Of a DNA stretch of 64,000 bases, positions 10,873-28,330 are shown piece after piece. Source of the DNA: Clostridium ljungdahlii (lineage in GTDB: Bacteria > Bacillota > Clostridia > Clostridiales > Clostridiaceae); contig NZ_LITT01000023.1 in the NCBI RefSeq assembly GCF_001636845.1, forward strand, positions 186,001 to 250,000, in the 5' to 3' direction. The position numbers were made by a program, and so were the translations under genes. The notes beneath the pieces were generated by a model. The model was not told the origin of the DNA. It did not search any database and was given only the letters and a program-made list of their open reading frames with translations. Within the stretch, counting starts at the first letter, position 1; every line of letters begins with the position of its first letter.

Positions 10873-10956
10873 ATAAGAATTGTATAGTCATAAGTTAACT
10901 TTACAGCATAAGAATTTTGTTGAATAAGGCATATATTTGTGTTAATATTATTGATA

Positions 10957-11068
10957 ATGTAAAGGAAACTATGATATATATGCCGTAATTTGGGTATCAG
11001 ACATATATGGAGTTAATGATACAACCGACCTTACATCTATAATCTATAGGTGTGAGGTTTTACTTTTA
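10957..11068 (+). promoter_or_regulatory. c-di-GMP-II riboswitch with overlapping terminator
   Basis: The aptamer core reads GGAAACUAUGA, a central UUUGGGUAUC, then GAUACAACCGACC; this follows the class II cyclic-di-GMP consensus, including the GGGUAUC/GAUACAACC pseudoknot. P1 is ATGTAAAGG (10957-10965) with CCTTACAT (11029-11036). The 3' strand of P1 is also the 5' arm of a terminator: CTTACATCTAT (11030-11040) with ATAGGTGTGAG (11046-11056), then GGTTTTACTTTT. Ligand binding should hold P1 and block the terminator, so the switch should turn the downstream chemoreceptor ON. The class call is strong; direction is inferred from the pairing. Confidence 0.9.
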
Positions 11069-11203: not shown

Positions 11204-12916
11204 ATGAGATGGTTTAATGATTTAAAAATTAAACAAAAACAGATTATAGGCTTTTTTATGGTAACTTTATTCGTTGTAATTGTAGGAACAGTAGGTTTGG
11301 TGAACATGTATAACATAAATAAAGGTTCCAATCAGATGTACAGTGTGGATTTAGAAAATGTTAAAAATCTTGACAAGTTTGATGCTGATATAATGCATCA
11401 ACGCTTAGAACTAATAAATCTTGTTGAAAGCAAAGATAAAGATAAGGTTCAGGATACTGTAAAAAATATAGCTCCTTATCAAAATAAAGATAACAGTATA
11501 TTAAATGATTATAAAAACTCTGATTTGACTTTGCAGGAAAAAAATTTAGTATTTAAGTTGGAAAGTCAATTGATTGACTGGAGAAATATATGTAATAAAA
11601 TTATAGAACTTATGGGTCAAGGAAAATATGATGATGCCATGAATGCAAATAAAGAAGCAGCTACTTATAGAGATAAATTAACTTCTACTATTGAGCAGTT
11701 GACTCAAAGTGCAGTTCAAAAAGCCAATGATAAGAATAGTAGCAATATGTCTATATATAATGAGTCATTATATATGATAATGATAATTACTCTAATTGGA
11801 ATAGTTGTGGCTTTCTTTTTAGGAAATAAGATTGCTTCATCAATTTCAAAAGAAGCAAATAATATTTTGAAATTTACAGATGCTATAAGTCAGGGTGATT
11901 TAAGTAAATCCATTCAGTTATTAAGTAAAGATGAAATGGGGATTATAGCTAGTGAGTTGGGTAAGGCTAATAAAAATATTAGAAATTTGATACTTGAGAT
12001 AATGCAGAGTACTGAAAGTATAAGTGCTTCTAGTGAGGAGTTATCTGCTACTACAGAGGAAATCTCTTCTATGATGTCGTCTGTAAATGAGTCTACGTCA
12101 CAAATAGCAGGTGGATCTGAAGATTTAAGTAGGATTACAGAAGAAATAAGTGTTTCTTGTGAAAAAATGGAACAAAATACAAATAAGCTTACCCAAAAAG
12201 CAAGTGAAGCTACAAAATCTTCAACAGAAATAAAAAAACGTGCTGTGGACATAAAGGAAAAGGCAGCTCAAAGTATAGAAGAAGGGAATGATATATATAA
12301 TAAAAGAAGAGAGGATATTATAAATGCTATTGAAAAGGGCAAAGTAGTTTCAGAAGTTAAAATTATGGCAGCTTCTATTGGTGATATAGCAGAGCAGACA
12401 AATCTCCTAGCGTTAAATGCAGCTATTGAAGCTGCAAGTGCAGGTGAGCATGGTAAGGGATTTGCGGTAGTTGCAGATGAAGTTAGAAAACTGGCAGAAG
12501 AATCTTCACAAGCAGTTGAAAATATAAATAGAATGGTACTTGCGGTGGAAGATGCTTTTAATAATTTGTCTGACAGTGGCAAAGAAATTTTGAATTATAT
12601 GTCAAATAGTGTTAAACCAAATTATCAAATTCTAATGGATACAGGACTGCAGTATGAAAAGGATGCAGAATTTATGAATAAAATATCAGAGGAAATTGCT
12701 GTAGCTTCAAAACAGATGAGCGAGATGGTATCTGAGGTGAATGGTGGTATTCAAAGTGCAGCAGCTACTGCACAGGAGTCTGCAGCTGGATCTGAGGAAA
12801 TTTCCAGTAGTGTAAATGAGGTTACTAAGGCTATTTCTGATATATCTGGTTCTTCTCAAAGTCAGGCAGAACTTGCAGAAAAACTGACAGATATAGTAAG
12901 TCAATTTAAAATATAA
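11204..12916 (+). CDS. Methyl-accepting chemotaxis protein under c-di-GMP riboswitch
   Basis: A 570-residue receptor with membrane helices at about 13-35 and 188-209, an extracellular 4HB-type sensor, HAMP, and a cytoplasmic signalling coiled coil with tip [20 protein letters not shown] (the usual AARAGE is AASAGE here). It is a paralogue of the receptor at 7560. ATG 11204 follows GAGGGGGAA. The 330-base leader carries a class II c-di-GMP riboswitch whose terminator ends about 135 bases before the start, so receptor levels should follow c-di-GMP. Confidence 0.93.
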
Positions 12917-13003: not shown

Positions 13004-13942
13004 ATGGTTTCCATAATTATACCAATATATAATGAAGAACTGCAAGTATATTCTAATGTAGTTAAAATAATGTCAATTTTATTAGAGAATAATATAGAAC
13101 ATCAATTTGTATTAGTCAATGATGGATCTACAGATAACTCTTCTAAAGAGATGAATAGATTGTGCAAGGATTACGATAACATATTCATTATTGAATTAAG
13201 CCGTAATTTTGGAAAAGAAGCTGCTTTATGTGCAGCCTTAGAGCATGTATCGGGAGATGCTTGTGTCATACTTGATTGTGACTTGCAGCATCCCCCAGAA
13301 TTAATACCTGAGATGGTGCGTCTTTGGAAGGAACAAGGCTATGATGTGGTAGAAGGAATTAAATTGGAGAGAGGAAAGGAACCTTTATTTAGGAAATTTG
13401 CTGCGTCAACGTTTTATGATTTGTTCAATAAAGTGTCAGGCATAAACTTAAGCAGTGCATCTGATTTTAAATTATTGGATAGAAAAGTAATAGAGGCGTG
13501 GAAATCAATGCATGAATCAATTACTTTCTTTCGAGGTATGTCAGCCTGGGTGGGATATAATAGGATTCAAATCCCCTTTGAGGTCCAAGCTAGAACTAGC
13601 GGTAAGTCTAAATGGTCACTTGGTAAGCTAGTAAAGCTTGGAATATACTCTGTTACTTCTTATACATCACTGCCGCTGTATATAGTTGCTTGGTTAGGTA
13701 TTATAATGATGATTGTTGACTGCATTTTATTTGTACAAACATTGTATATGAAATTTAATGGTAAGGCTTTTACAGGATTTACTACAGTGATAATTCTGAT
13801 ACTAGGAATTGGAAGTTGTATAATGATAAGTTTAGGAATTATTGGCATATATATATCTAAAATATATGGCGAAGTAAAGAGAAGACCTAGGTATTTGATT
13901 GCAAAAAAACAAGGAAAAGAATTCTATTACAAAAATCAATAG
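13004..13942 (+). CDS. GT2 family polyprenyl-phosphate glycosyltransferase
   Basis: A 312-residue membrane-attached enzyme: an N-terminal GT-A domain with IIIPIYNEE, VNDGSTD and DCDLQHPPE (about residue 90), the SxxSDFKLLDR segment, and two C-terminal membrane helices (about 222-245 and 258-285). This is the dolichyl-phosphate-mannose synthase/GtrB/YkoT type that charges undecaprenyl phosphate with a sugar on the cytosolic face. It is the first gene of the XrtG locus and is followed 23 bases later by the giant membrane protein, which could be the acceptor-side transferase. RBS AAGGGG precedes ATG 13004. Confidence 0.88.
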   Translation: MVSIIIPIYNEELQVYSNVVKIMSILLENNIEHQFVLVNDGSTDNSSKEMNRLCKDYDNIFIIELSRNFGKEAALCAALEHVSGDACVILDCDLQHPPELIPEMVRLWKEQGYDVVEGIKLERGKEPLFRKFAASTFYDLFNKVSGINLSSASDFKLLDRKVIEAWKSMHESITFFRGMSAWVGYNRIQIPFEVQARTSGKSKWSLGKLVKLGIYSVTSYTSLPLYIVAWLGIIMMIVDCILFVQTLYMKFNGKAFTGFTTVIILILGIGSCIMISLGIIGIYISKIYGEVKRRPRYLIAKKQGKEFYYKNQ

Positions 13943-13965
13943 GAATCATTAGGTGGTGATTTTTA

Positions 13966-16900
13966 GTGAAGTTTCAAGGATATAAGTATAAATTTAAAAT
14001 AAATATTTCTCACAGTGTTTTAATAAATAATAGACGTGGAAACTTACATTCACATACGTTTGAAATTTCACTTTTCATAAAAATTATCAACGATGATTTT
14101 GCCTTGTATGATGATGTGGAAAAAATAGTACAAGAATTCTTGAATATTTATGATGAAAAAGAGTTAAACTTGATTAAACCTTTTGATAAGATAGAACCGA
14201 CAATTGAAAATGTAGGAGATTTATTATACGTTCGGCTTAAAGGAATATTGAAGAATAATAATATGATACTTATAAGGTTAGAAATTAGTGAAACTCCTGC
14301 AAGGATTTATGTTGTAAATTATGATGAAAATCATATAAAAGAACCAGGTTACGAGAAAGAGTTTAAAAGCTATAAAAAAAGAATGACAAGAATAATTATT
14401 AATAATATTTTAAATACTACAGCTAAACAATTAACAGATGATTTAAAAAATTCAAGTAATACTATTGTTGAAGGAACATGGATACAAGAGGATGATAAAA
14501 AGGAAAAAGTTATAGAAAAGAAAAATACTATAAAAATAAAAGAAAGTAAAAAGGCTCCTGACGATATAAGACATAGTGGAAAAGTGAGAAAAAACAATTA
14601 TGTGTTTTTAGAGATATTGGGACCAATATCTGTTTTGCTAATTGGAACAATAGTACTTTTACTTTGCATAATAAAAACAGGAGGATACCCTTGGGGTGCG
14701 GATACTTATGGCCATATATTTAAAGGAGACTTGTTATACAAAAGCATAAAAGAAGGCAATATATATCCACTTTTTACTCAGTTTTGGTACAATGGTGTAC
14801 AACCATTTAGGTATTGGGGACCACTTTCCTATTATGTACTTGCTGGATGTGAATTTATTTCCGGTGGCAATCCCATTAATGGGTATGTAATTTTTATTGG
14901 GTATTCATTTTTTATAGGAGGTTTAGGGTGGCTGCTGTGGGGTATACACCAGAGAAGAATATTACTTTCCTTAGTTTTTGGAATTCTATGGTTTTTTCTT
15001 CCGGAAAATATAAGAGTGCTTTTTGTTGCTGGAAATATACCTAGGGTTATTATTGCAGCACTTATACCTTACTTGTTCTATTTTGTATGGAAATTTGTAA
15101 AGGATGATGATAGATCTTCTATTATACCTATTGCACTGTTTATGTGTGCTATAATAATGTGCCATTTAATGATAGGGGCTATGGTAGGAATCGCTTCATT
15201 TATATTTTTATCCCTTTATTCTATAATGAACAAGAAAATTGAAAAAAGCGTTCATGTTATATTAACAATGCTTTTATCCTTTGCAATTTGTGGAATTTGG
15301 ATTTATCCTGCTTTAAAGGGCGGACTGGTTTCTATGGATAGCGGGGCTACTTCCTCTCAGATGATGGAGCTTTTGGCTACCCCATTTACTATCTCATTGA
15401 ATCCATTTTTAAGATTATTTGGTATAGTAGATAGAGAATATTTTTACTATGGGCTGTCAATTTTGATTATATCGATTTTAGGAATATTTGTTTCAAATAA
15501 AAAAAGTGCACCCGGATTTGTTACCTCTATAGTGATATTTCTGGGAACAACTACAGCTTTTGTACCTATGCTTGAAAAGATGCCCTTTAGTCAGCTATTG
15601 TGGATGGTTAGATTTACTCCTATAGCCTATGCATTATTTATTATCAGTTTATTGAATTGGACAAAATGTAAAAAATATTTTATGATTATAATGGTGGTTT
15701 TAATAGCTGCTGACAGTTCTTTATCATTTAATCTTTCATTATACCCACAAATTAAATCCGCTGAAGTAGACAATATTTTAAGTTCAGCTAAAAATATTAC
15801 AAAACAGAGAATTGCACTGCTCGACGACAGTACATTTGGGGCATATCCATCTTTCTATATTTGCAGTGAAGATAAGAAAATTTCATATTCCTATGGTTGG
15901 GCATGGCAGGGTGCGGCAACGGCTCAAAATATTGTGCTTTTAAATACTGCACTTGAAAAAGGCTATTACAATTATATGTTTGACAGATCCCTTGAAATGG
16001 GATGCGATACTGTTGTTGTAGCCAAAGCACCTATGAAAAAGGATAAAAGAGATTTTAACATTATAAATAATGCAGCAAAGTTCTCTCAATACACCTTATA
16101 CAAAGAGACAAGTGAAGGTTATGTATTTCATAGAAAAGCTTCGGAAAACTTTGGGGTAGTAACAAAATATTCCGGTTTGTGTATAGGGCGTTCTGCATCG
16201 GATATACCTCTTGAATATCCTTCTTTTGAAATAGGATCTTCCTGGAATATTGAAGATTATACATTAGATGAACTTAGTAAATATAAAGTGATTTATCTTT
16301 CAGATTTCCGTTATAATAGTAGATCTAAAGCAGAAAATATGGTTTCTAAACTAAGTAGTATGGGAATAAAGATTATTATAGATATGAATAGAATTCCGGC
16401 AGATACAATTACAAATCGTATGGTTTTTCTAGGGGTCACGGCCCAGCCTATTACGTTTAATACAAAGATGCCTGACATGTTTTTTAACGATAAAAAGTAT
16501 GAAAGTGTAAATTTTAAAGATGAATATAAAATATGGAATACAGTTTATTTGGATAATGTTCCTCAGGTTACAGGATTCTCCTGGGTCAACGGCAAAAAAG
16601 TTCCTTTTCTCGGAAGTGGAAAAGGAAAAAATAAAAATATAACTTTTTTAGGCTTTAATTTAATGTTTCATGGAATGGAAAATGATGATAGCAGGGTATT
16701 AGCTATAATGAATACAGTGATGGGAACAAAATCTTCCATATTGCCTGAACGAACTCTTGTGCCTATAAATTTAAAATATGGACAAAATTCAATTACTATA
16801 GATTCTCCTAAAAACAATGTCAATACAACAGTTGCATTCTTGGATGCCTATAAAAGTAATAGTGGCCAAATCTATGCAAAACAAAATCTTTTGAATGTAA

Positions 16901-17022
16901 ATAAAGGTGAAACTAAAATTAGAGTTACTTATCCCTATTTATTTCAAGGAATAGCTGTATCTGTAATAGGACTACTGGGGTTTGCATTTTTCATTATTTA
17001 TATATATAAAAGGGTGGTCTAA
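13966..17022 (+). CDS. PTPS-like domain fused to large membrane protein (XrtG locus)
   Basis: A 1018-residue protein. Residues 1-120 resemble 6-pyruvoyl-tetrahydropterin/6-carboxytetrahydropterin synthase, with the three zinc-ligand histidines (His16, His28, His30) and the ISETPAR element, but without the catalytic Cys between first and second His and without the DH pair. A charged linker runs to about 210, then about 10-12 membrane helices beginning with a PWGADTYGHIFKGD loop, reminiscent of GT-C transferases (the 'PTPS-related' membrane domain), a soluble region of about 350 residues, and a last helix with a basic tail. GTG 13966 follows AGGTGGTGA. I infer a membrane glycosyl- or lipid-transferase role in the exosortase system. 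Confidence 0.8.
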   Translation: MKFQGYKYKFKINISHSVLINNRRGNLHSHTFEISLFIKIINDDFALYDDVEKIVQEFLNIYDEKELNLIKPFDKIEPTIENVGDLLYVRLKGILKNNNMILIRLEISETPARIYVVNYDENHIKEPGYEKEFKSYKKRMTRIIINNILNTTAKQLTDDLKNSSNTIVEGTWIQEDDKKEKVIEKKNTIKIKESKKAPDDIRHSGKVRKNNYVFLEILGPISVLLIGTIVLLLCIIKTGGYPWGADTYGHIFKGDLLYKSIKEGNIYPLFTQFWYNGVQPFRYWGPLSYYVLAGCEFISGGNPINGYVIFIGYSFFIGGLGWLLWGIHQRRILLSLVFGILWFFLPENIRVLFVAGNIPRVIIAALIPYLFYFVWKFVKDDDRSSIIPIALFMCAIIMCHLMIGAMVGIASFIFLSLYSIMNKKIEKSVHVILTMLLSFAICGIWIYPALKGGLVSMDSGATSSQMMELLATPFTISLNPFLRLFGIVDREYFYYGLSILIISILGIFVSNKKSAPGFVTSIVIFLGTTTAFVPMLEKMPFSQLLWMVRFTPIAYALFIISLLNWTKCKKYFMIIMVVLIAADSSLSFNLSLYPQIKSAEVDNILSSAKNITKQRIALLDDSTFGAYPSFYICSEDKKISYSYGWAWQGAATAQNIVLLNTALEKGYYNYMFDRSLEMGCDTVVVAKAPMKKDKRDFNIINNAAKFSQYTLYKETSEGYVFHRKASENFGVVTKYSGLCIGRSASDIPLEYPSFEIGSSWNIEDYTLDELSKYKVIYLSDFRYNSRSKAENMVSKLSSMGIKIIIDMNRIPADTITNRMVFLGVTAQPITFNTKMPDMFFNDKKYESVNFKDEYKIWNTVYLDNVPQVTGFSWVNGKKVPFLGSGKGKNKNITFLGFNLMFHGMENDDSRVLAIMNTVMGTKSSILPERTLVPINLKYGQNSITIDSPKNNVNTTVAFLDAYKSNSGQIYAKQNLLNVNKGETKIRVTYPYLFQGIAVSVIGLLGFAFFIIYIYKRVV

Positions 17023-17023
17023 A

Positions 17024-17647
17024 ATGAAAAAGATAATTACAATTATATCTGTACTCCTTATATCTGTAATGTTTTTATATCCTCTAAAAGTATATGCTGC
17101 TGACAGTGGGGTGACACTAGATGGATATTTTGATGACTGGATTGATAAACCAAGCCAAAAATTATATTATTGGCAGGGAGCAGTTCACACTGTGAAGTGG
17201 TATTCAGATGATAAAGACTTATATTTATATATAAAAATGGCAACTGTAGGTGGGCAACAGTTGAATAACTATATAATAATGTATTCTGATAATAATGGCA
17301 TTCAAGGAAACTTGACTATACAGGTTGATAGACCGTCCAAAGGACGTATATCTATTTATAATTATAGCATGGATTACAGGCCGTTTTCTACAGACGGATA
17401 CGTAGTACGTGGAAGCAACATCGACGGAAAAACAAGTGATCAGGGTGAGTTTAGAATACCTTTAACTATTTTTCAAAAGGACGTCAAAGACCAAATGACT
17501 ACCTTAAATCTTCGGTTTCCTAATTTAGGTAACCAGGGTATAGCATTTCAAGTAGGTAGTACTTATCCTTACATGGGAGTTTCTATAGGTGTCTTGATTG
17601 TTGCTTCTGGATTTTTTATCTATCGTAGAAAGAGAAAAATAGAATGA
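17024..17647 (+). CDS. Firmicu-CTERM surface protein, XrtG substrate
   Basis: A 207-residue secreted protein. Residues 1-24 are a signal peptide ending VYA before ADSG; LDGYFDDWIDKP opens a beta-rich domain like CBM9/DOMON-type folds; the C-terminus has YPYMG, a hydrophobic helix and RRKRK. That tail is the Firmicu-CTERM sorting signal that co-occurs with XrtG. ATG 17024 (RBS AAAGGGTGG) is preferred over the open frame from 16982. Its stop overlaps the exosortase start (ATGA), tying substrate and enzyme together. Likely cleaved and transferred to a glycolipid or other envelope anchor; the anchor is unknown. Confidence 0.85.
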   Translation: MKKIITIISVLLISVMFLYPLKVYAADSGVTLDGYFDDWIDKPSQKLYYWQGAVHTVKWYSDDKDLYLYIKMATVGGQQLNNYIIMYSDNNGIQGNLTIQVDRPSKGRISIYNYSMDYRPFSTDGYVVRGSNIDGKTSDQGEFRIPLTIFQKDVKDQMTTLNLRFPNLGNQGIAFQVGSTYPYMGVSIGVLIVASGFFIYRRKRKIE

Positions 17648-18240
17648 AGATATTAATATGTTTTTTACTAATTGTATGGATATATTTAATAACAGTTTTT
17701 ACGAGGGCTAAATTGCATTTCTTTAAATTTGTGGTTGGATCTGTTGGTTTGTTTTTTTTCATGATGGTGATTTTACAGCCTTATTTAGTAAATATATTAA
17801 GTCGTTCAGTTGCAGCAGCTTCGGGTATTATGGGAGATGTCACAGGATGTTACCAGGCTTTTTACCAGTATTCGCTTATACTTATACAAAGTGGAGGGTC
17901 AGCTATATCCATGTATATAGACTATGAGTGTTCAGGAGTAATAGAGATACTTGCTTTTACTGCACTTTTATGGTTCTTTCCTCTATATAATACACTGGAA
18001 AAAATAATGTACAATATAATAGGAGTGGTTTGGATATTCGTGGCAAATATAATTAGAATTTTTATTATTTGCATACTTGTATATTATTATGGTAACAATA
18101 TTTTTTACTTTGCTCATACTATATTTGGAAGAATAGTTTTTTATGCCTTGTCAATAATTTTGTACTTTTACGTATTTACCAGGTCTCAAATTAAAAGGCA
18201 AAAGGTAGGTAATGTTTTATATGGAGATGATATTAAGTAA
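17644..18240 (+). CDS. xrtG: Exosortase family protein XrtG
   Basis: A 198-residue protein with about six membrane helices and the exosortase catalytic triad in order: Cys96 in DYECSGVIE, Arg138 in ANIIRIF and His158 in FAHTIFGR. This is the Gram-positive XrtG class, a cysteine transpeptidase-like enzyme acting outside the membrane on C-terminal sorting signals. The ATG overlaps the stop of the Firmicu-CTERM gene by four bases, and the next gene, the XrtG-associated glycosyltransferase, overlaps its 3' end by 29 bases. Confidence 0.9.
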   Translation: MKILICFLLIVWIYLITVFTRAKLHFFKFVVGSVGLFFFMMVILQPYLVNILSRSVAAASGIMGDVTGCYQAFYQYSLILIQSGGSAISMYIDYECSGVIEILAFTALLWFFPLYNTLEKIMYNIIGVVWIFVANIIRIFIICILVYYYGNNIFYFAHTIFGRIVFYALSIILYFYVFTRSQIKRQKVGNVLYGDDIK

Positions 18241-19591
18241 AACCTTTAAGGAAATGATTTTTTGGATGGCGTGGATTATAATACCTTTTATAATGGAAAT
18301 CGTGCCTTCCATTGTAGGATTTTTTATTCTAATTAAAAAGAAAATGTCCCTAAAAAAGGAATGCTTTTCAGGAAAACTTCCGGAAATAACAGTTATTGTT
18401 CCTGTATATAATTCTGCACAAACCCTGGAATCTTGCATTAAATCCATATATGAATCTAATTATCCTACTGGACTTATAGATGTGATGCTTGTAAATAATA
18501 TGAGTAGTGATAATAGCTTCGAAATTTTTACAAAAAGCCAGAAAGAATTTGAAGGGCTGTCTATGAGGTACTTAAATGCAAAACAAGGTAAATCAAAAGC
18601 ACTTAATATGGCACTTTTTAATAGCGGAGGAAAATATATAATTCACATTGACAGCGATGGCATACTTGAAACTAACGCAATAAGGAATATGGTTGTACGT
18701 TTTGAACAAAATCCACATATCCACTGTATGACTGGTGCAATTTTAACTGATGCCAAATATATAGAAAACACTAAAACTTCATTTTTAAAGTTAGTAAGAA
18801 GGTGTGAATTTTTTGAATATGCTCAAGCATTTTTAGCAGGAAGAAATTTTGAATCGGAGCTCAATAGTATATATACTTTATCTGGGGCCTTCTCAGCATT
18901 TAGAAAATCCACAATTTTAAAAACTCAGCTCTATAATAGTGAAACTGTATGTGAAGATACCCAGATAACTTTTCAAGTCAGACATTTATTAAAGAAAAAA
19001 GTATACTTGTGTGAAAATGCACTTTTTTTTGTTGAACCTATCGATAATTTTAATAAACTATATACCCAGCGTCAGCGTTGGCAGCGTGGCGAAATGGAAG
19101 TTTCACATATGTTTTTAAAGGACAAGATCTATTCAGCTGGAGGATTTTTTAGCAATTTTATGATAAGAATATTGATGTATGATCATACATTTGCGTTTCC
19201 TAGGATGATATGGTATTTTGCCCTTATATTTCTTCTATTTATGGATTATCCCCTTTATCTTATCTTAGGATCTGTATTTGTAATATATTTATTATATGTT
19301 CTATCTGCATTTTTATTTTATCTAAATGTAAGGGTATATCTTGCAGAGTATAAGGATATAAGGAAATATTATTCTGCAAAAGTTTATTTGATTGTTTTAA
19401 TGCCCCTATTTAACTTTATGATATTTTGGATAAGGTTTGCAGGAATTATTAACAGTATAAAGCTTGAGAGTAAGTGGAAGACACTGAATTTAAAAGAGGA
19501 GTATATAGCCTTTTGCAATGTAAGTAAGTCGGATTTTCAAAGAGTATTTAAAATAATAGACAAAGTAAGAAGGATAGTCAATAATCCATGA
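18212..19591 (+). CDS. XrtG-associated GT2 glycosyltransferase
   Basis: A 459-residue membrane enzyme: one N-terminal helix, a cytosolic GT2 domain with VIVPVYNSA, HIDSDG (DxD), VCEDTQ and QRQRWQRGE (QxxRW), then about four C-terminal helices. The D,D,D,QxxRW set is that of processive BcsA/hyaluronan-synthase-like enzymes. It matches the glycosyltransferase always found with XrtG and probably builds the sugar or lipid-linked glycan involved in anchoring. Alternative starts ATG 18221 and 18227 are possible; AAAGG at 18201-18205 suits 18212. Confidence 0.88.
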   Translation: MFYMEMILSKTFKEMIFWMAWIIIPFIMEIVPSIVGFFILIKKKMSLKKECFSGKLPEITVIVPVYNSAQTLESCIKSIYESNYPTGLIDVMLVNNMSSDNSFEIFTKSQKEFEGLSMRYLNAKQGKSKALNMALFNSGGKYIIHIDSDGILETNAIRNMVVRFEQNPHIHCMTGAILTDAKYIENTKTSFLKLVRRCEFFEYAQAFLAGRNFESELNSIYTLSGAFSAFRKSTILKTQLYNSETVCEDTQITFQVRHLLKKKVYLCENALFFVEPIDNFNKLYTQRQRWQRGEMEVSHMFLKDKIYSAGGFFSNFMIRILMYDHTFAFPRMIWYFALIFLLFMDYPLYLILGSVFVIYLLYVLSAFLFYLNVRVYLAEYKDIRKYYSAKVYLIVLMPLFNFMIFWIRFAGIINSIKLESKWKTLNLKEEYIAFCNVSKSDFQRVFKIIDKVRRIVNNP

Positions 19592-19644
19592 TATTGCATT
19601 GGAGAAATAAAACTAAGATCATAATTTGAAGAGAGGAAACTGCA

Positions 19645-20871
19645 TTGATGATGAAGAAAAGAGCATCAGAAAATTATTTGATAAAAATACTTCTAATCTT
19701 TATAATAACTGTAGCTTTTATTTCAGCATTGTGGCTTGACATATTTTATGAAATAGGCAATCATAAAAAGAATATAATAGATGCTTTTTCAAGAGAGCAA
19801 TATTCAACAACTAATCAATTATCAGACAGGCTACAGGAAAGTTTAAATGATTATGTACAAAATAAGGGACTTACATTACATTTGGCAGAAGAAAAGGCTA
19901 TAAGCGAGATTATTAAAAAGGAGATAAATTCTCAAAATAAATATGTGTTTTTTTATAATAGCAAGCATATTTTATTTGAAAGAAATTATTTAACCACTGC
20001 AGAGTATAAAGGTAAAGGATTAAAAGATAGTTTTAATTTATGGGAATATAATGGCGGCAGTAACTTGGATGAAGTAAAAAATCTCATGAACTCTGGGATA
20101 AGTGGTAAAGGTGAAATTGTAAAGGACAGTAAAAAGGGAAAAGAAATTGTTTCCTGGTGCTTTTTTAAAGTATTAAACGATAAATATGTTATAGGAATGT
20201 CAACTTCAGAAGATTATCTATTTAGAGAGACTTTATTCAATCAGCACGTTGTAAGGTTATATATTCTTGGTGGAATAGCTACTATGGCAATTATAATACT
20301 TTCAGCAGCTTTTTCACTATACCTGTATTTCATGTTTAAAAAAGTAAAGAGCCTCACAAACCAACTTAAAAACAAGAACATTCAAGTACAAAACTTTGTT
20401 TCTGCAATAAGTCAGGTGGAGAAAGCTGCACGTAAGGCTACCATATGTGATCTACTTACAGGAGTGTATAATAGAAAGTTTTTTTATACCATCCTTCCTA
20501 AAATGAATGAGAAGTTATTTTTTCCTATTACAGTAATTAGAGTAAGTATAGAAGGTATAAAAAATGTAAATAATGTTTTAGGTCGTGGAAAGGGTGATGA
20601 GGTATTAGTAGAACTAGCAGAAATACTTTTAGAAAGTTGTAATGAATCTGATATTGTTTCAAGAATAAGTGATAATAAATTTGTACTGATTATGATTAAC
20701 ACAGATAGAGAAGCTGCTTTCAGAAAAGTAGATGAAATAGGAGAAAAAATAAGAAGTAGTTTTATCGTTCCTATATGTAGTATATTTTTTGGAGTTGCAG
20801 TAAAAACATCTGAAACGCAAAATTTATTTAGAATTTTAAAGTATACAGAAAAAAATATTAGGCAACTGTAA
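19645..20871 (+). CDS. Membrane protein with degenerate GGDEF domain
   Basis: A 408-residue protein: membrane helix about 12-33, extracellular sensor about 34-203 (Cache/PAS-like), helix about 204-232, then a GGDEF-fold domain from about 265. DLLTGVYNRKFF and GRGKGDE are conserved, but the signature GGDEF is SDNKF (342-346), the first metal Asp position reads VSIEGIK, and the I-site RxxD is missing. It therefore should not make c-di-GMP. The start TTG 19645 or ATG 19648 follows AGAGAGG. It sits between the XrtG glycosyltransferase and the free PTPS-like gene, so it may be a structural or sensing partner of the locus. Confidence 0.85.
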   Translation: MMMKKRASENYLIKILLIFIITVAFISALWLDIFYEIGNHKKNIIDAFSREQYSTTNQLSDRLQESLNDYVQNKGLTLHLAEEKAISEIIKKEINSQNKYVFFYNSKHILFERNYLTTAEYKGKGLKDSFNLWEYNGGSNLDEVKNLMNSGISGKGEIVKDSKKGKEIVSWCFFKVLNDKYVIGMSTSEDYLFRETLFNQHVVRLYILGGIATMAIIILSAAFSLYLYFMFKKVKSLTNQLKNKNIQVQNFVSAISQVEKAARKATICDLLTGVYNRKFFYTILPKMNEKLFFPITVIRVSIEGIKNVNNVLGRGKGDEVLVELAEILLESCNESDIVSRISDNKFVLIMINTDREAAFRKVDEIGEKIRSSFIVPICSIFFGVAVKTSETQNLFRILKYTEKNIRQL

Positions 20872-20921
20872 TTTGAAATACTTGAAGTATAACTACTATG
20901 AGGAAATGGAGGAATAAACTT

Positions 20922-21413
20922 TTGAAATATAACCAATATAGATTTAAATTTTACCTCAATGCATCACACTCTATATATCTAAAAGGTATTTTGGGTGAAG
21001 AACACCCGCATACTTGGGAGATTACCTTAGATACAGTTAAGTTAGAAGATAACTTTATTATTTTTAATGATATAGAAAAGAATATTGAAGAATACTTGCA
21101 AAAGTTTCAAGATAAATATATTAATAACATTACTCCATTTAATACGTTGAATCCAACACTTGAAAACATATGTGCATATTTTAAAGAATGTTTTGAAAGC
21201 TTGCTAATAGAAAATAAGTGGCTGCTGCTATCTATAGAAATAAGTGAAACTCCAACACGATCATATATTATTGATGTTTCTGATGAAATTAACTACAATA
21301 ATATTTCACATATTAAAGACAAAGAAAAATATAATTGGAATAAGGGTATTTCCATTGTAAATCAGGAGATTGATCGGATCACAAAATTAGTTATTGATAA
21401 AAATAAGTCATAA
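20922..21413 (+). CDS. Stand-alone PTPS/QueD-like protein of XrtG locus
   Basis: A 163-residue single-domain protein related to 6-pyruvoyl-tetrahydropterin synthase. Zinc ligands His16, His28 and His30 and ISETPTRSYI are present at the same positions as in the N-terminal domain of the 1018-residue protein in this locus. The catalytic Cys is absent, and the DH of the DHxxLN motif reads QD. TTG 20922 with GGAGG at 20908-20912 is preferred over the open frame from ATG 20898. The pair suggests a binding or scaffold role, not pterin synthesis. Confidence 0.8.
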   Translation: MKYNQYRFKFYLNASHSIYLKGILGEEHPHTWEITLDTVKLEDNFIIFNDIEKNIEEYLQKFQDKYINNITPFNTLNPTLENICAYFKECFESLLIENKWLLLSIEISETPTRSYIIDVSDEINYNNISHIKDKEKYNWNKGISIVNQEIDRITKLVIDKNKS

Positions 21414-25938: not shown

Positions 25939-26138
25939 CGTTATCCTTTAGGGAAAATCGTTATCCAGGGACGTAGCTGCTCGCAACGTAAACTTGGAGA
26001 AAAGCAGATATCCCAAATCTTTGATTTGGTGATAGTCGCTTTCGCTGTGTGCAAGCAGATATCCCAAATTCTTAGATTTGGTGACAGTCGCTTTCACAGA
26101 GTGCGTGGGAGTATTAGAGCAGGTAGTCATCGGATAAA
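25939..26138 (+). repeat. Structured repeat, family B copy 1
   Basis: This segment shares long stretches with 53387-53518: CGTTATCCAGGG, CGTAGC, a GCAGATATCCCAAATC hairpin followed by GGTGATAGTCGCTTTC, CACAGAGTG, and GGTAG-CATCGGATAA. The ends can pair (TTATCC 25961-25966 with GGATAA 26132-26137), so it may fold into one RNA. In this copy the 40-base GCAGATATCCC...GCTTTC unit is duplicated (26004-26043 and 26055-26095). An open frame over this region is not a believable gene. Function unknown. Confidence 0.65.
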
Positions 26139-26246
26139 CTAAGTAGAGATATAGGGGAATTTAGGAATATATTAGAGTCTAATTAAGATATGGTGTTATT
26201 TGACTTTATTTATATTTGATAGTAAAATGAATATAATTTAATAATA

Positions 26247-26358
26247 GTTGGAAGCAATGAAAAATTTCCGCTATTTGGGCACTTGGAAATTTTAAAGCTA
26301 GTAGTGCACCCGGCCAACAATTAATAATGTTTATTAATTGTTGGCTTTATTTTATTTT
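26247..26358 (+). promoter_or_regulatory. c-di-GMP-II riboswitch before CheY-CheC-GGDEF operon
   Basis: The aptamer reads GTTGGAAGCAATGA at the 5' side, ATTTGGGCACTTGG in the middle and GCTAGTAGTGCACCCGGCCAAC at the 3' side, following the class II cyclic-di-GMP consensus with the GGGCAC/GTGCACCC pseudoknot. P1 is GTTGG (26247-26251) with CCAAC (26314-26318). The same CCAAC is the base of a 15-base perfect terminator stem, 26313-26327 with 26331-26345, followed by TTTATTTTATTTT. Binding should favour read-through. Deviations from the usual GGAAAC and AACCGACC (here GGAAGC and ACCCGGCC) may alter affinity. Confidence 0.85.
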
Positions 26359-26387
26359 AAGGTTACTGGGGGGGAATAAAAGTTATT

Positions 26388-26762
26388 ATGTTAAAAATTC
26401 TAATTGTCGATGATTCTAACTTTTCTCAAAAGATAATATCTAATTTATTAAAAAGTTTTTTGGATAATGTTGAGTTCTTTTTTGCAAGTGATGGAAGAGA
26501 AGGCTTTAGCAAATACAAAGAAATTAAACCGGATTATGTATTTGTAGATTTGTTGATGCCAAATATAAATGGTAAAGAATTGATAAAATTAATAAAAGAA
26601 TATGATGCTAGTTGTAAAATAATTGTTATTTCTGCAGATGTACAAAAAAACGTAAAAGAAGATATGGAATCATATAACATAATGTATTTTATAAATAAAC
26701 CGTTTAATCAGGAAAAAGCAAAGTTCATATGTGATAAAATAAGGAATGATAAAAATGAATAG
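26388..26762 (+). CDS. CheY-like response regulator
   Basis: A 124-residue single receiver domain: acidic pair Asp8-Asp9, phosphorylation site Asp54 (VFVDLLMP), Ser82 and Lys104 (INKPF). There is no output domain. It is the first gene behind a c-di-GMP-II riboswitch and overlaps the start of a CheC-like gene, so it probably tunes chemotaxis or motility. The start ATG 26388 lies 13 bases after a run of seven G residues, the only possible SD. Confidence 0.9.
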   Translation: MLKILIVDDSNFSQKIISNLLKSFLDNVEFFFASDGREGFSKYKEIKPDYVFVDLLMPNINGKELIKLIKEYDASCKIIVISADVQKNVKEDMESYNIMYFINKPFNQEKAKFICDKIRNDKNE

Positions 26763-27393
26763 TAATGCTTTTAGATATGATATATTAAGGGAATTATTTA
26801 ATATTAGTATTGGCAAGGCTGCAAGTATTCTTTCAGAAATAACAAATAAAAAGATTTTGTTAGATGTTCCTAATATAGAAATATTAAATTCTCAGGATGA
26901 AAAATTTAAAATAAATGGATATTTACCTAATAAAATAGATGGAACACTAATGGTATCTTCTATTTCTTTTGAAAAAAAGTTAAAAGGAAAAGCAAATTTA
27001 ATCTTTCCTGCTAAAAAAATGAAAACTTTTATAAATCTTTGCTTAAATGAGGAACAAGAAAATAGTGAATATTATGATATGAATTTTACAGACATAGATT
27101 TTGATACTGTTAAAGAAATAGGAAATATAATTTTAAACTGTATCTTAGGAGAGGTTGGAAATTATCTAAATATCAACTTAACATATACTTTGCCGGAAGT
27201 AAAAGTATTTAATGTAATAGATTTTAGCAAAGACATTAAAAATGAAAGTTATACGTATACATTGATTTTATACATAACTTTTCTCATAGATGATGTGAAA
27301 ATAGAGGGTGCTATAATAATAGATTTAACATTAAAATCCTTAAATGAATTGATGAAAAAAATTGATAAAGTAAGGGATGAACTTTATGAATAG
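26755..27393 (+). CDS. CheC/CheX-family phosphatase-like protein
   Basis: A protein of about 212 residues with two copies of the CheC-type active-site helix: LRELFNISIGKAASIL near the N-terminus and VKEIGNIILNCILGEVGNYL about residue 120, each with the E-x2-3-N pattern. CheC and CheX dephosphorylate CheY-P, so the partner is likely the receiver encoded just upstream. ATG 26755 is chosen over 26746 because AAGGA at 26741-26745 is correctly spaced. It overlaps its neighbours by 8 bases on both sides, indicating a tight operon. Confidence 0.8.
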   Translation: MNSNAFRYDILRELFNISIGKAASILSEITNKKILLDVPNIEILNSQDEKFKINGYLPNKIDGTLMVSSISFEKKLKGKANLIFPAKKMKTFINLCLNEEQENSEYYDMNFTDIDFDTVKEIGNIILNCILGEVGNYLNINLTYTLPEVKVFNVIDFSKDIKNESYTYTLILYITFLIDDVKIEGAIIIDLTLKSLNELMKKIDKVRDELYE

Positions 27394-28330
27394 AATTTTA
27401 TTTGATGCTCTGGATAATGTTAATGAAGGAGTAGTAATTTTAAATGAGCAATTTAAAATTTTATTTTGGAATAGTTATATGAAACATATAACTGGAATTG
27501 GAACAAAGTATATTATAGGTAAAAGTATTTATGAAGCACTACCGAATTTTAATAGAAATTATTTTAATGAATCTATAAAATCTTTAATGAATAATGAATA
27601 TAAACTGTTTTTTTCAGCAACTATGCATAAAGATCTAGTTAATGATAATGGAAAATTTAATTTAAAGATAAGTAAATTAGAAGAAGGCAAATCGAGATTT
27701 TTATTTTTGGAATTTATTAACGTTACCAATGAATTTGAGAGAGTTAATCAATTAAAATTATATATCAATAAATTATTTCTTTTAAATAAAAAACTAAAGG
27801 ATAAAGAAAAAGTTATTAGAAATTTGGCTTATTATGATAAACTAACAGGGTTGGGAAACAGGGTGTTATTTTATGAAATTGCAGAGAAAATACTTGACAG
27901 TTGCCGTAGAAATAACAATATGTTAGGGCTAATGTTCATAGATGTAGACAATTTTAAAAGTATTAATGATACTTATGGACATACGACTGGTGACAACGTC
28001 CTCGTCAAGGTGGCAGATATATTGAAGAAAGCTACGAGAAAAAATGATGTAATTGCTAGATTTGGTGGAGATGAATTTTTAGTATTACTGCCAGATATAA
28101 AAAATTTTAATAATTATAAAATAATACATTCTAGGATTATAAATACTAAAAAGAGAATTATAAATTTATGTGGTAATAAAATAAACATATCTCTTAGTAC
28201 TGGGGTTAGTTTTTATCCTCAGGATGGCAAAAGTATTGATGAGCTTATAATAAAGGCTGATGAGGCAATGTATATTGCAAAAAACGTAGATGGAAATGAT
28301 AATTGTTTTTGCAGTAAATATATTGTGTAA
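27386..28330 (+). CDS. PAS-GGDEF diguanylate cyclase
   Basis: A 314-residue cytosolic protein: PAS domain about 1-120, short coiled coil, GGDEF domain from about 150. The active site is intact (FIDVDNFKSIND; GGDEF at 227-231), and the inhibitory I-site RxxD is present (Arg218-Asp221, five residues before GGDEF). It should make c-di-GMP from two GTP and be product-inhibited. ATG 27386 follows AAGGG at 27372-27376. It is the third gene of the operon that a c-di-GMP-II riboswitch controls. Confidence 0.92.
   Translation: MNRILFDALDNVNEGVVILNEQFKILFWNSYMKHITGIGTKYIIGKSIYEALPNFNRNYFNESIKSLMNNEYKLFFSATMHKDLVNDNGKFNLKISKLEEGKSRFLFLEFINVTNEFERVNQLKLYINKLFLLNKKLKDKEKVIRNLAYYDKLTGLGNRVLFYEIAEKILDSCRRNNNMLGLMFIDVDNFKSINDTYGHTTGDNVLVKVADILKKATRKNDVIARFGGDEFLVLLPDIKNFNNYKIIHSRIINTKKRIINLCGNKINISLSTGVSFYPQDGKSIDELIIKADEAMYIAKNVDGNDNCFCSKYIV

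Follow-up and report, generated by a model that had tools for sequence, protein, structure and literature searches.

A predicted ON-type class II c-di-GMP riboswitch in front of a recurrent CheY-CheC-diguanylate cyclase cassette in Clostridium ljungdahlii and other clostridia

Among the described systems closest to the locus of this study, the four class II c-di-GMP riboswitches of C. difficile are ON switches according to the available parts of the sources (PMC3649979, PMC6200980, PMC6366702), although contrary wording for class II appears in legends, as 'negatively regulated' (PMC3649979) and 'off' (PMC6366702), and the functional class I c-di-GMP switches of that species are given as OFF in the same parts (PMC6200980, PMC6366702). 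The targets named there for class II are pilin, adhesin and surface genes. The class I switches called GEMM precede cyclase and phosphodiesterase genes in the available part of PMC12564702, where Lee et al. are cited for an association of class II aptamers with c-di-GMP metabolism genes.

In this study, a class II aptamer was found in front of a cheY-cheC-GGDEF cassette in the window, by which we mean the whole 64,000-nt stretch of Clostridium ljungdahlii DNA that was analysed. It shares the aptamer family and the predicted ON polarity of the C. difficile class II switches, whereas its targets include a predicted cyclase. As in the GEMM cases covered by that source, an RNA sensor of c-di-GMP is placed on genes of c-di-GMP metabolism, but the aptamer class is different and the genes form a conserved CheY-CheC-cyclase cassette, unlike those of GEMM. 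The association of Lee et al. is a general one in the form in which it is cited, and the CheY-CheC-GGDEF cassette was not found described in the literature searched. As a principle, a class II switch on c-di-GMP metabolism is not wholly new. Our literature search, which covered few subscription papers, turned up no paper that describes a CheY-CheC-GGDEF cassette under riboswitch control or a c-di-GMP riboswitch acting in positive feedback, and the conserved ON-type cassette appears to be undescribed in the literature searched. With an ON switch conserved in front of a cyclase gene, a second messenger would be subject to an RNA-only loop of positive feedback.

The features of the leader and the operon are collected in Table 1. 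By cmscan, the leader matched the complete RF01786 model (positions 1-84 of 84) at E 2e-13, scoring 69.1 bits where the gathering score is 53.5, in agreement with the class II aptamer that the original prediction had named; the start that it gave, 26247, falls within P1, and the match starts slightly upstream, at 26241. A pseudoknot that joins the P3 loop to the 3' segment can be read from the sequence, and the claimed overlap of P1 with a terminator was confirmed, as the 5' arm of the terminator is the 3' strand of P1 (26314-26324), with 11 nt in common. None of 1500 random stretches of the window, 354 nt each, held a stem of 11 bp or more without mismatch that covered 9 nt or more of the P1-3' position. 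The promoter candidate is weak taken alone, the consensus scan having returned 21 sites in the region against 19.2 in shuffles. Folded without ligand or pseudoknot terms, the leader reaches -32.4 kcal/mol with the terminator and -17.2 kcal/mol with P1 enforced, so that the ON state must be won kinetically, during transcription. Since the terminator needs the 3' strand of P1, ligand binding should block termination, and the leader is predicted to bind c-di-GMP and to act as an ON switch.

Table 1. Features of the riboswitch leader and the cassette in the window (plus strand; positions of the window).
Feature	Position	Strand	Basis or detail
Promoter candidate, sigma-A type (TTGACT-17-TAAAAT)	26200..26228	+	consensus scan
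c-di-GMP-II aptamer, RF01786	26241..26324	+	cmscan
P1 arms of the aptamer	about 26242-26251 and 26314-26323	+	P1 pairing analysis
Pseudoknot, GCAC with GUGC	26279-26282 with 26304-26307	+	read from sequence
C for consensus A70 (3Q3Z numbering), contact position in the available part of the source	26309..26309	+	sequence register
Intrinsic terminator, 16 bp, loop 3, then TTATTTTATT	26312..26346	+	-18.1 kcal/mol
G-run, likely ribosome binding site of cheY	26368..26374	+	sequence
cheY-like single-domain response regulator	26388..26762	+	PF00072 (Response_reg) E 4.3e-21
cheC-like predicted CheY-P phosphatase	26746..27393	+	PF04509 E 3.7e-10
PAS-GGDEF predicted diguanylate cyclase	27377..28330	+	PF00990 E 7.7e-47, PAS

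The ORFs and their Pfam matches agree with the CheY-like, CheC-like and PAS-GGDEF genes in overlapping frames that had been predicted, and both gene junctions, read from the sequence, overlap: counted from the earliest ATG the overlap is 17 nt, and from the later one 8 nt; the likely start of the third ORF is the ATG at 27386, which gives 314 aa. In the CheY-like protein, residues D8, D9, D54, S82 and K104 are all present. The CheC-like protein, on which CheX (PF13690) fell below cutoff, has both sites of the motif D/S-xxx-E-xx-N-(22)-P intact (D12 E16 N19 P42 and D120 E124 N127 P150), a motif that we take to mark a CheC-type phosphatase, and it is the predicted phosphatase partner of CheY. 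The CheC profile matched the solved Thermotoga chains 1xkr (E 4e-9) and 2f9z (E 6.2e-9), which belong to a common CheC fold family with the window protein and, as we assume, share its two-site motif; unlike Thermotoga CheC, the window protein is encoded with a cyclase and stays below the NCBIfam equivalog cutoff (49.8 vs 250 bits). The GGDEF profile matched solved diguanylate cyclases (best E 7.5e-40), and GGDEF, the guanine-binding N and D and RxxD are all intact in the window cyclase, their roles being presumably those known from PleD. The I-site claimed earlier is present as RKND, five residues ahead of GGDEF (RKNDVIARFGGDEF), and the 314-aa protein is predicted to have diguanylate cyclase activity. 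A cGAMP (Hypr) cyclase was considered and rejected, because the usual D after GH is retained (GHTTGD), which we take to speak against that identity.

The cassette recurs among clostridia. With a profile built from five CheC orthologues (E <= 1e-15), the cassette CheC was matched in 19 of 206 genomes of the family, and the ORFs around these loci follow the order cheY-cheC-GGDEF in most of them, the exceptions being a copy truncated next to transposase-like ORFs (G065, locus L072), one without a CheY ORF of at least 80 aa (G182, L082) and one with a shortened CheC ORF (G110). Both CheC sites are intact in all but the last two among 21 cassettes checked (19/21). The family cassettes were searched for aptamers at E 1 and E 0.5, in two sets, and an aptamer lies directly upstream of cheY in nine of the 19 genomes, from six genera: the window (G000), C. 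ragsdalei (G008), G132, G115, G160, G116, G070, G108 and G110. It also stands in front of the cassette in a MAG (L086), which is probably the same organism as G070. A lineage-specific chance insertion was considered and rejected, since members of six genera share the combination of aptamer and cassette. No aptamer was found at the remaining ten (C. algifaecis G001, C. tyrobutyricum G012, G010, G065, G133, G141, G189, G175, G136 and G182), and cmscan of all 13 aptamer-less cassette loci (L024-L026, L072, L075-L078, L081, L082 and the MAGs L087-L089) detected none in front of the genes; in one of these, the Herbinix MAG L089, a single aptamer lies about 0.8 kb behind the cassette. In a class-wide sample of 391 genomes, seven had a CheC match at E <= 1e-40, four of them new, with the full three-gene order visible at two of the four within the stretch covered and an aptamer at none of the four, which lie outside the family. 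Given this absence at ten of the 19 family cassettes and at the four outside loci, feedback is not essential to the cassette. The G132 cassette is nearly identical to that of the window despite its placement in another genus, which suggests transfer.

In each of the nine cassette leaders, a terminator stem of 11-19 bp, free of mismatches, overlaps P1-3' by 9-11 nt, and the P1 helices keep 6 to 9 of 11 pairs, with 6/11 in G160 and G108. Over the seven distinct leaders, P1 is paired in 54 of 77 cells, a value reached in only 9 of 5000 arm swaps (mean 40.7), and the terminator in 74 of 74, a figure that is partly built in because the terminator finder favours mismatch-free stems. Among 48 class II loci, including the window and its sister, 39 show an overlap of 4 nt or more, in part with weak hairpins. 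Between the window and C. ragsdalei, no base differs from the promoter through the end of the terminator stem, whereas the spacer upstream differs; aptamer and terminator together carry no change in 106 positions, against 13 changes at 146 fourfold sites (p 0.0008). In comparison with G132, one of 84 aptamer positions has changed against 18 of 135 fourfold sites (p 0.001), or three of 106 when the terminator is included (p 0.005). The G-run of the ribosome binding site counts seven G in the window and six in C. ragsdalei, and reads GGGAGG in G132.

Traces of decay were sought in 11 of the 13 leaders without an aptamer, leaving out the truncated L072 and the remote L082, with 200 shuffles each. 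The leaders of C. algifaecis (G001), C. tyrobutyricum (G012) and the Herbinix MAG (L089) scored better than every shuffle (0/200 as good in each case); they keep the terminator region and have lost parts of the aptamer, and since they align to intact leaders, aptamer loss probably happened there. The other eight gave no aptamer trace, as between 49 and 158 of 200 shuffles matched their scores. When nine aptamer-bearing and two decayed rows were labelled on a tree of 21, no clustering was seen (500/500 shuffles as low), and the tree does not separate aptamer gain from loss. The cassette thus offers natural comparison cases, as its aptamer may be intact, altered or decayed.

Genes behind class II aptamers were surveyed in the family at 108 sites, which are part of all those matched. 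By a home-made GGDEF profile, one of the 108 (L054) has a GGDEF ORF downstream, a count from stretches of 1.5 to 2.3 kb (L140 shorter), so that third-gene cyclases, including those of the three cassette sites in the set, were missed. First genes were found at 106 sites and scanned at 101 (the near-duplicates L012, L018, L020 and L021, and L048, were left out), and comprised MCPsignal (18), type IV leader peptidase (10), collagen-binding (9), Response_reg (9) and EAL (5) proteins; GGDEF was not among the 25 families listed per scan, rarer ones lying outside. In one neighbouring genus, class II aptamers are followed directly by a second family of receiver proteins, 127-130 aa long (L054, L100, L110, L118, L137 and L149).

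From these data, the following course of events is proposed. The sigma-A promoter would transcribe a leader with the class II aptamer; with no ligand, the 3' strand of P1 would be taken into the 16-bp hairpin and transcription would stop before cheY. When c-di-GMP is bound during transcription, P1 and the pseudoknot would keep that strand, the terminator would be blocked and cheY, cheC and the PAS-GGDEF cyclase would be co-produced, so that c-di-GMP would increase the level of one of the enzymes that make it. This positive feedback would be capped by product inhibition at the I-site, and the simultaneous rise of CheY and its phosphatase would tie the loop to chemotaxis-type phosphorylation. 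The ON-type overlap, together with the ON polarity of the C. difficile class II switches, makes positive feedback on c-di-GMP the best prediction from the locus. Taken as a whole, an ON switch with positive feedback, an I-site cap and a CheY/CheC tie is in our judgement the best explanation and a probable one; the aptamer, the overlap, the operon, the intact catalytic residues and the recurrence on which it builds are evident at the sequence level. Any action of CheY or CheC on the cyclase itself is speculative.

It is rather improbable, in our estimate, that the ON switch feeds an incoherent, adapting loop, in which the co-induced CheC would dephosphorylate the CheY-P that activates the cyclase or the chemotaxis output. 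The encoding of CheY and CheC alongside the cyclase and the intact CheC sites in most cassettes fit such a loop, as does an ORF with an HPt-like HTIKG motif, recognised by eye, just upstream of the G136 cassette; yet it is PAS, not REC, that precedes GGDEF, and no sign of CheY touching the cyclase was seen.

The aptamer bases themselves bear on a further alternative. The available part of PMC7288161 gives 13 ligand-contact nucleotides of 3Q3Z, A70 and G73 among them, and by an eye count in a register set by sequence, 11 of these 13 are identical in the window aptamer, with C at A70 and G at A74, the latter being common among relatives. A worry over aptamer variants, raised in the original prediction, was justified in so far as the contact A70 is C in the window. 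Among 48 classified aptamers (L041 was unclassifiable), A70 is A in 45 and C in three (the window, C. ragsdalei and L004). Within the cassette, C70 occurs in G000, G008 and G132, U73 in G108, G110 and G115, and C73 in G116, with only G160 and G070 canonical at both positions. Departures at A70 or G73 were thus recorded in 7/9 cassette aptamers vs 11/101 others (Fisher p 3e-5), a p value that is generous because the nine are non-independent and the 101 are mostly best-scoring matches, nearer the consensus; one change is shared by the window, C. ragsdalei and G132, and another by G108 and G110. Four comparison aptamers that escaped the pattern proved canonical at both positions on inspection. 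Contact-base changes still concentrate on this cassette, and such departures may shift the affinity or specificity of its aptamers, which is the chief reservation about the feedback reading; that they tune the threshold of the switch is speculative. No contact-base mutants of a class II aptamer were found in the literature search. Outside the cassette, U73 was noted in L004, L005, L006, L013, L015, L059, L103, L124, L129 and L135 and C73 in L146; the aptamers of L004, L005, L013, L015 and L059 precede genes resembling periplasmic sugar-binding proteins, and the non-cassette G73 variants are possible specificity variants.

With a similarly low probability, these changes would weaken c-di-GMP binding or shift the ligand, leaving the leader as a fixed attenuator, like the decayed leaders, or with some other response. 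The status of A70 and G73 as contacts in the part of the source at hand, the excess of departures on the cassette and the existence of decayed leaders that retain the terminator speak for such altered sensors, but the non-independence of the nine and the mostly best-scoring comparison set weaken the excess, the window aptamer scores well above the cutoff, and it has hardly changed from species to species, in contrast to the drifting fourfold sites. An OFF switch, in which the ligand would cause termination and thereby negative feedback, has a parallel in the functional class I switches of C. difficile, as given in the parts cited above, but is very improbable and was set aside on leader anatomy, the terminator requiring the strand used by ligand-bound P1, no separate antiterminator being seen in the leader and the C. 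difficile class II switches being ON in those same parts.

Under the preferred reading of an ON switch with positive feedback, bistability had been thought possible from the layout. In a simple model in which the riboswitch binds its ligand 1:1 and cyclase output rises linearly with cyclase amount, none of 20,000 random parameter sets was bistable with linear or saturable degradation alone, which excludes bistability by layout alone within this model. Bistability appeared, in 422 to 1,155 of the 20,000 sets, once dimerisation was included or the I-site was combined with saturable degradation. A latch is thus possible in the model, but not implied by the predicted positive feedback. A self-reinforcing bistable c-di-GMP latch, with the cassette kept and lost repeatedly, the contacts detuned to a high threshold, and cyclase dimerisation acting together with the I-site, strikes us as doubtful; if true, individual cells would remember the sessile state, and CheY and CheC would couple this memory to chemotaxis.

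The host genome (4.36 Mb, 65 contigs) belongs to a genus group that also includes C. ragsdalei, C. algifaecis and C. tyrobutyricum, and each of the three proteins of the cassette shares 97% identity with its C. ragsdalei counterpart. The host genome holds 19 GGDEF matches, 18 besides this cyclase, and 8 EAL matches; the c-di-GMP pool may be dominated by the other 18. Two class II c-di-GMP aptamers were matched in this genome, both inside the window, and one class I riboswitch. The second class II aptamer (10955-11038, +, 54.9 bits) has a 15-bp terminator overlapping P1 and precedes a gene (11204-12916) that is chemoreceptor-like judged by sequence, and the sole class I copy found (L003 1501-1588, -) precedes an ORF judged chemoreceptor-like in the same way; the three c-di-GMP riboswitches found thus all precede chemotaxis-type genes.

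The PII gene upstream of the riboswitch was rejected as a part of the system, being a neighbour only in the window and C. ragsdalei within the fetched flanks. Between it and the riboswitch lie repeated AAGCAGATATCCCAAAT units (25950-26140, +), of which C. ragsdalei has one fewer. Downstream of the riboswitch-chemoreceptor unit, an exosortase G (XrtG) locus occupies 13004-21413 (+), with a Firmicu-CTERM protein (16982-17647), TIGR03110 (17644-18240), a TIGR03111 glycosyltransferase (18212-19591), two TIGR03112 proteins and a GGDEF protein with a degenerate motif (RISDNKF; 19645-20871). The window also carries a skipping-rope RNA (RF02924, 3373-3450, +, 55 bits) and a cobalamin riboswitch (RF00174, 63080-63259, +, 53.5 bits).
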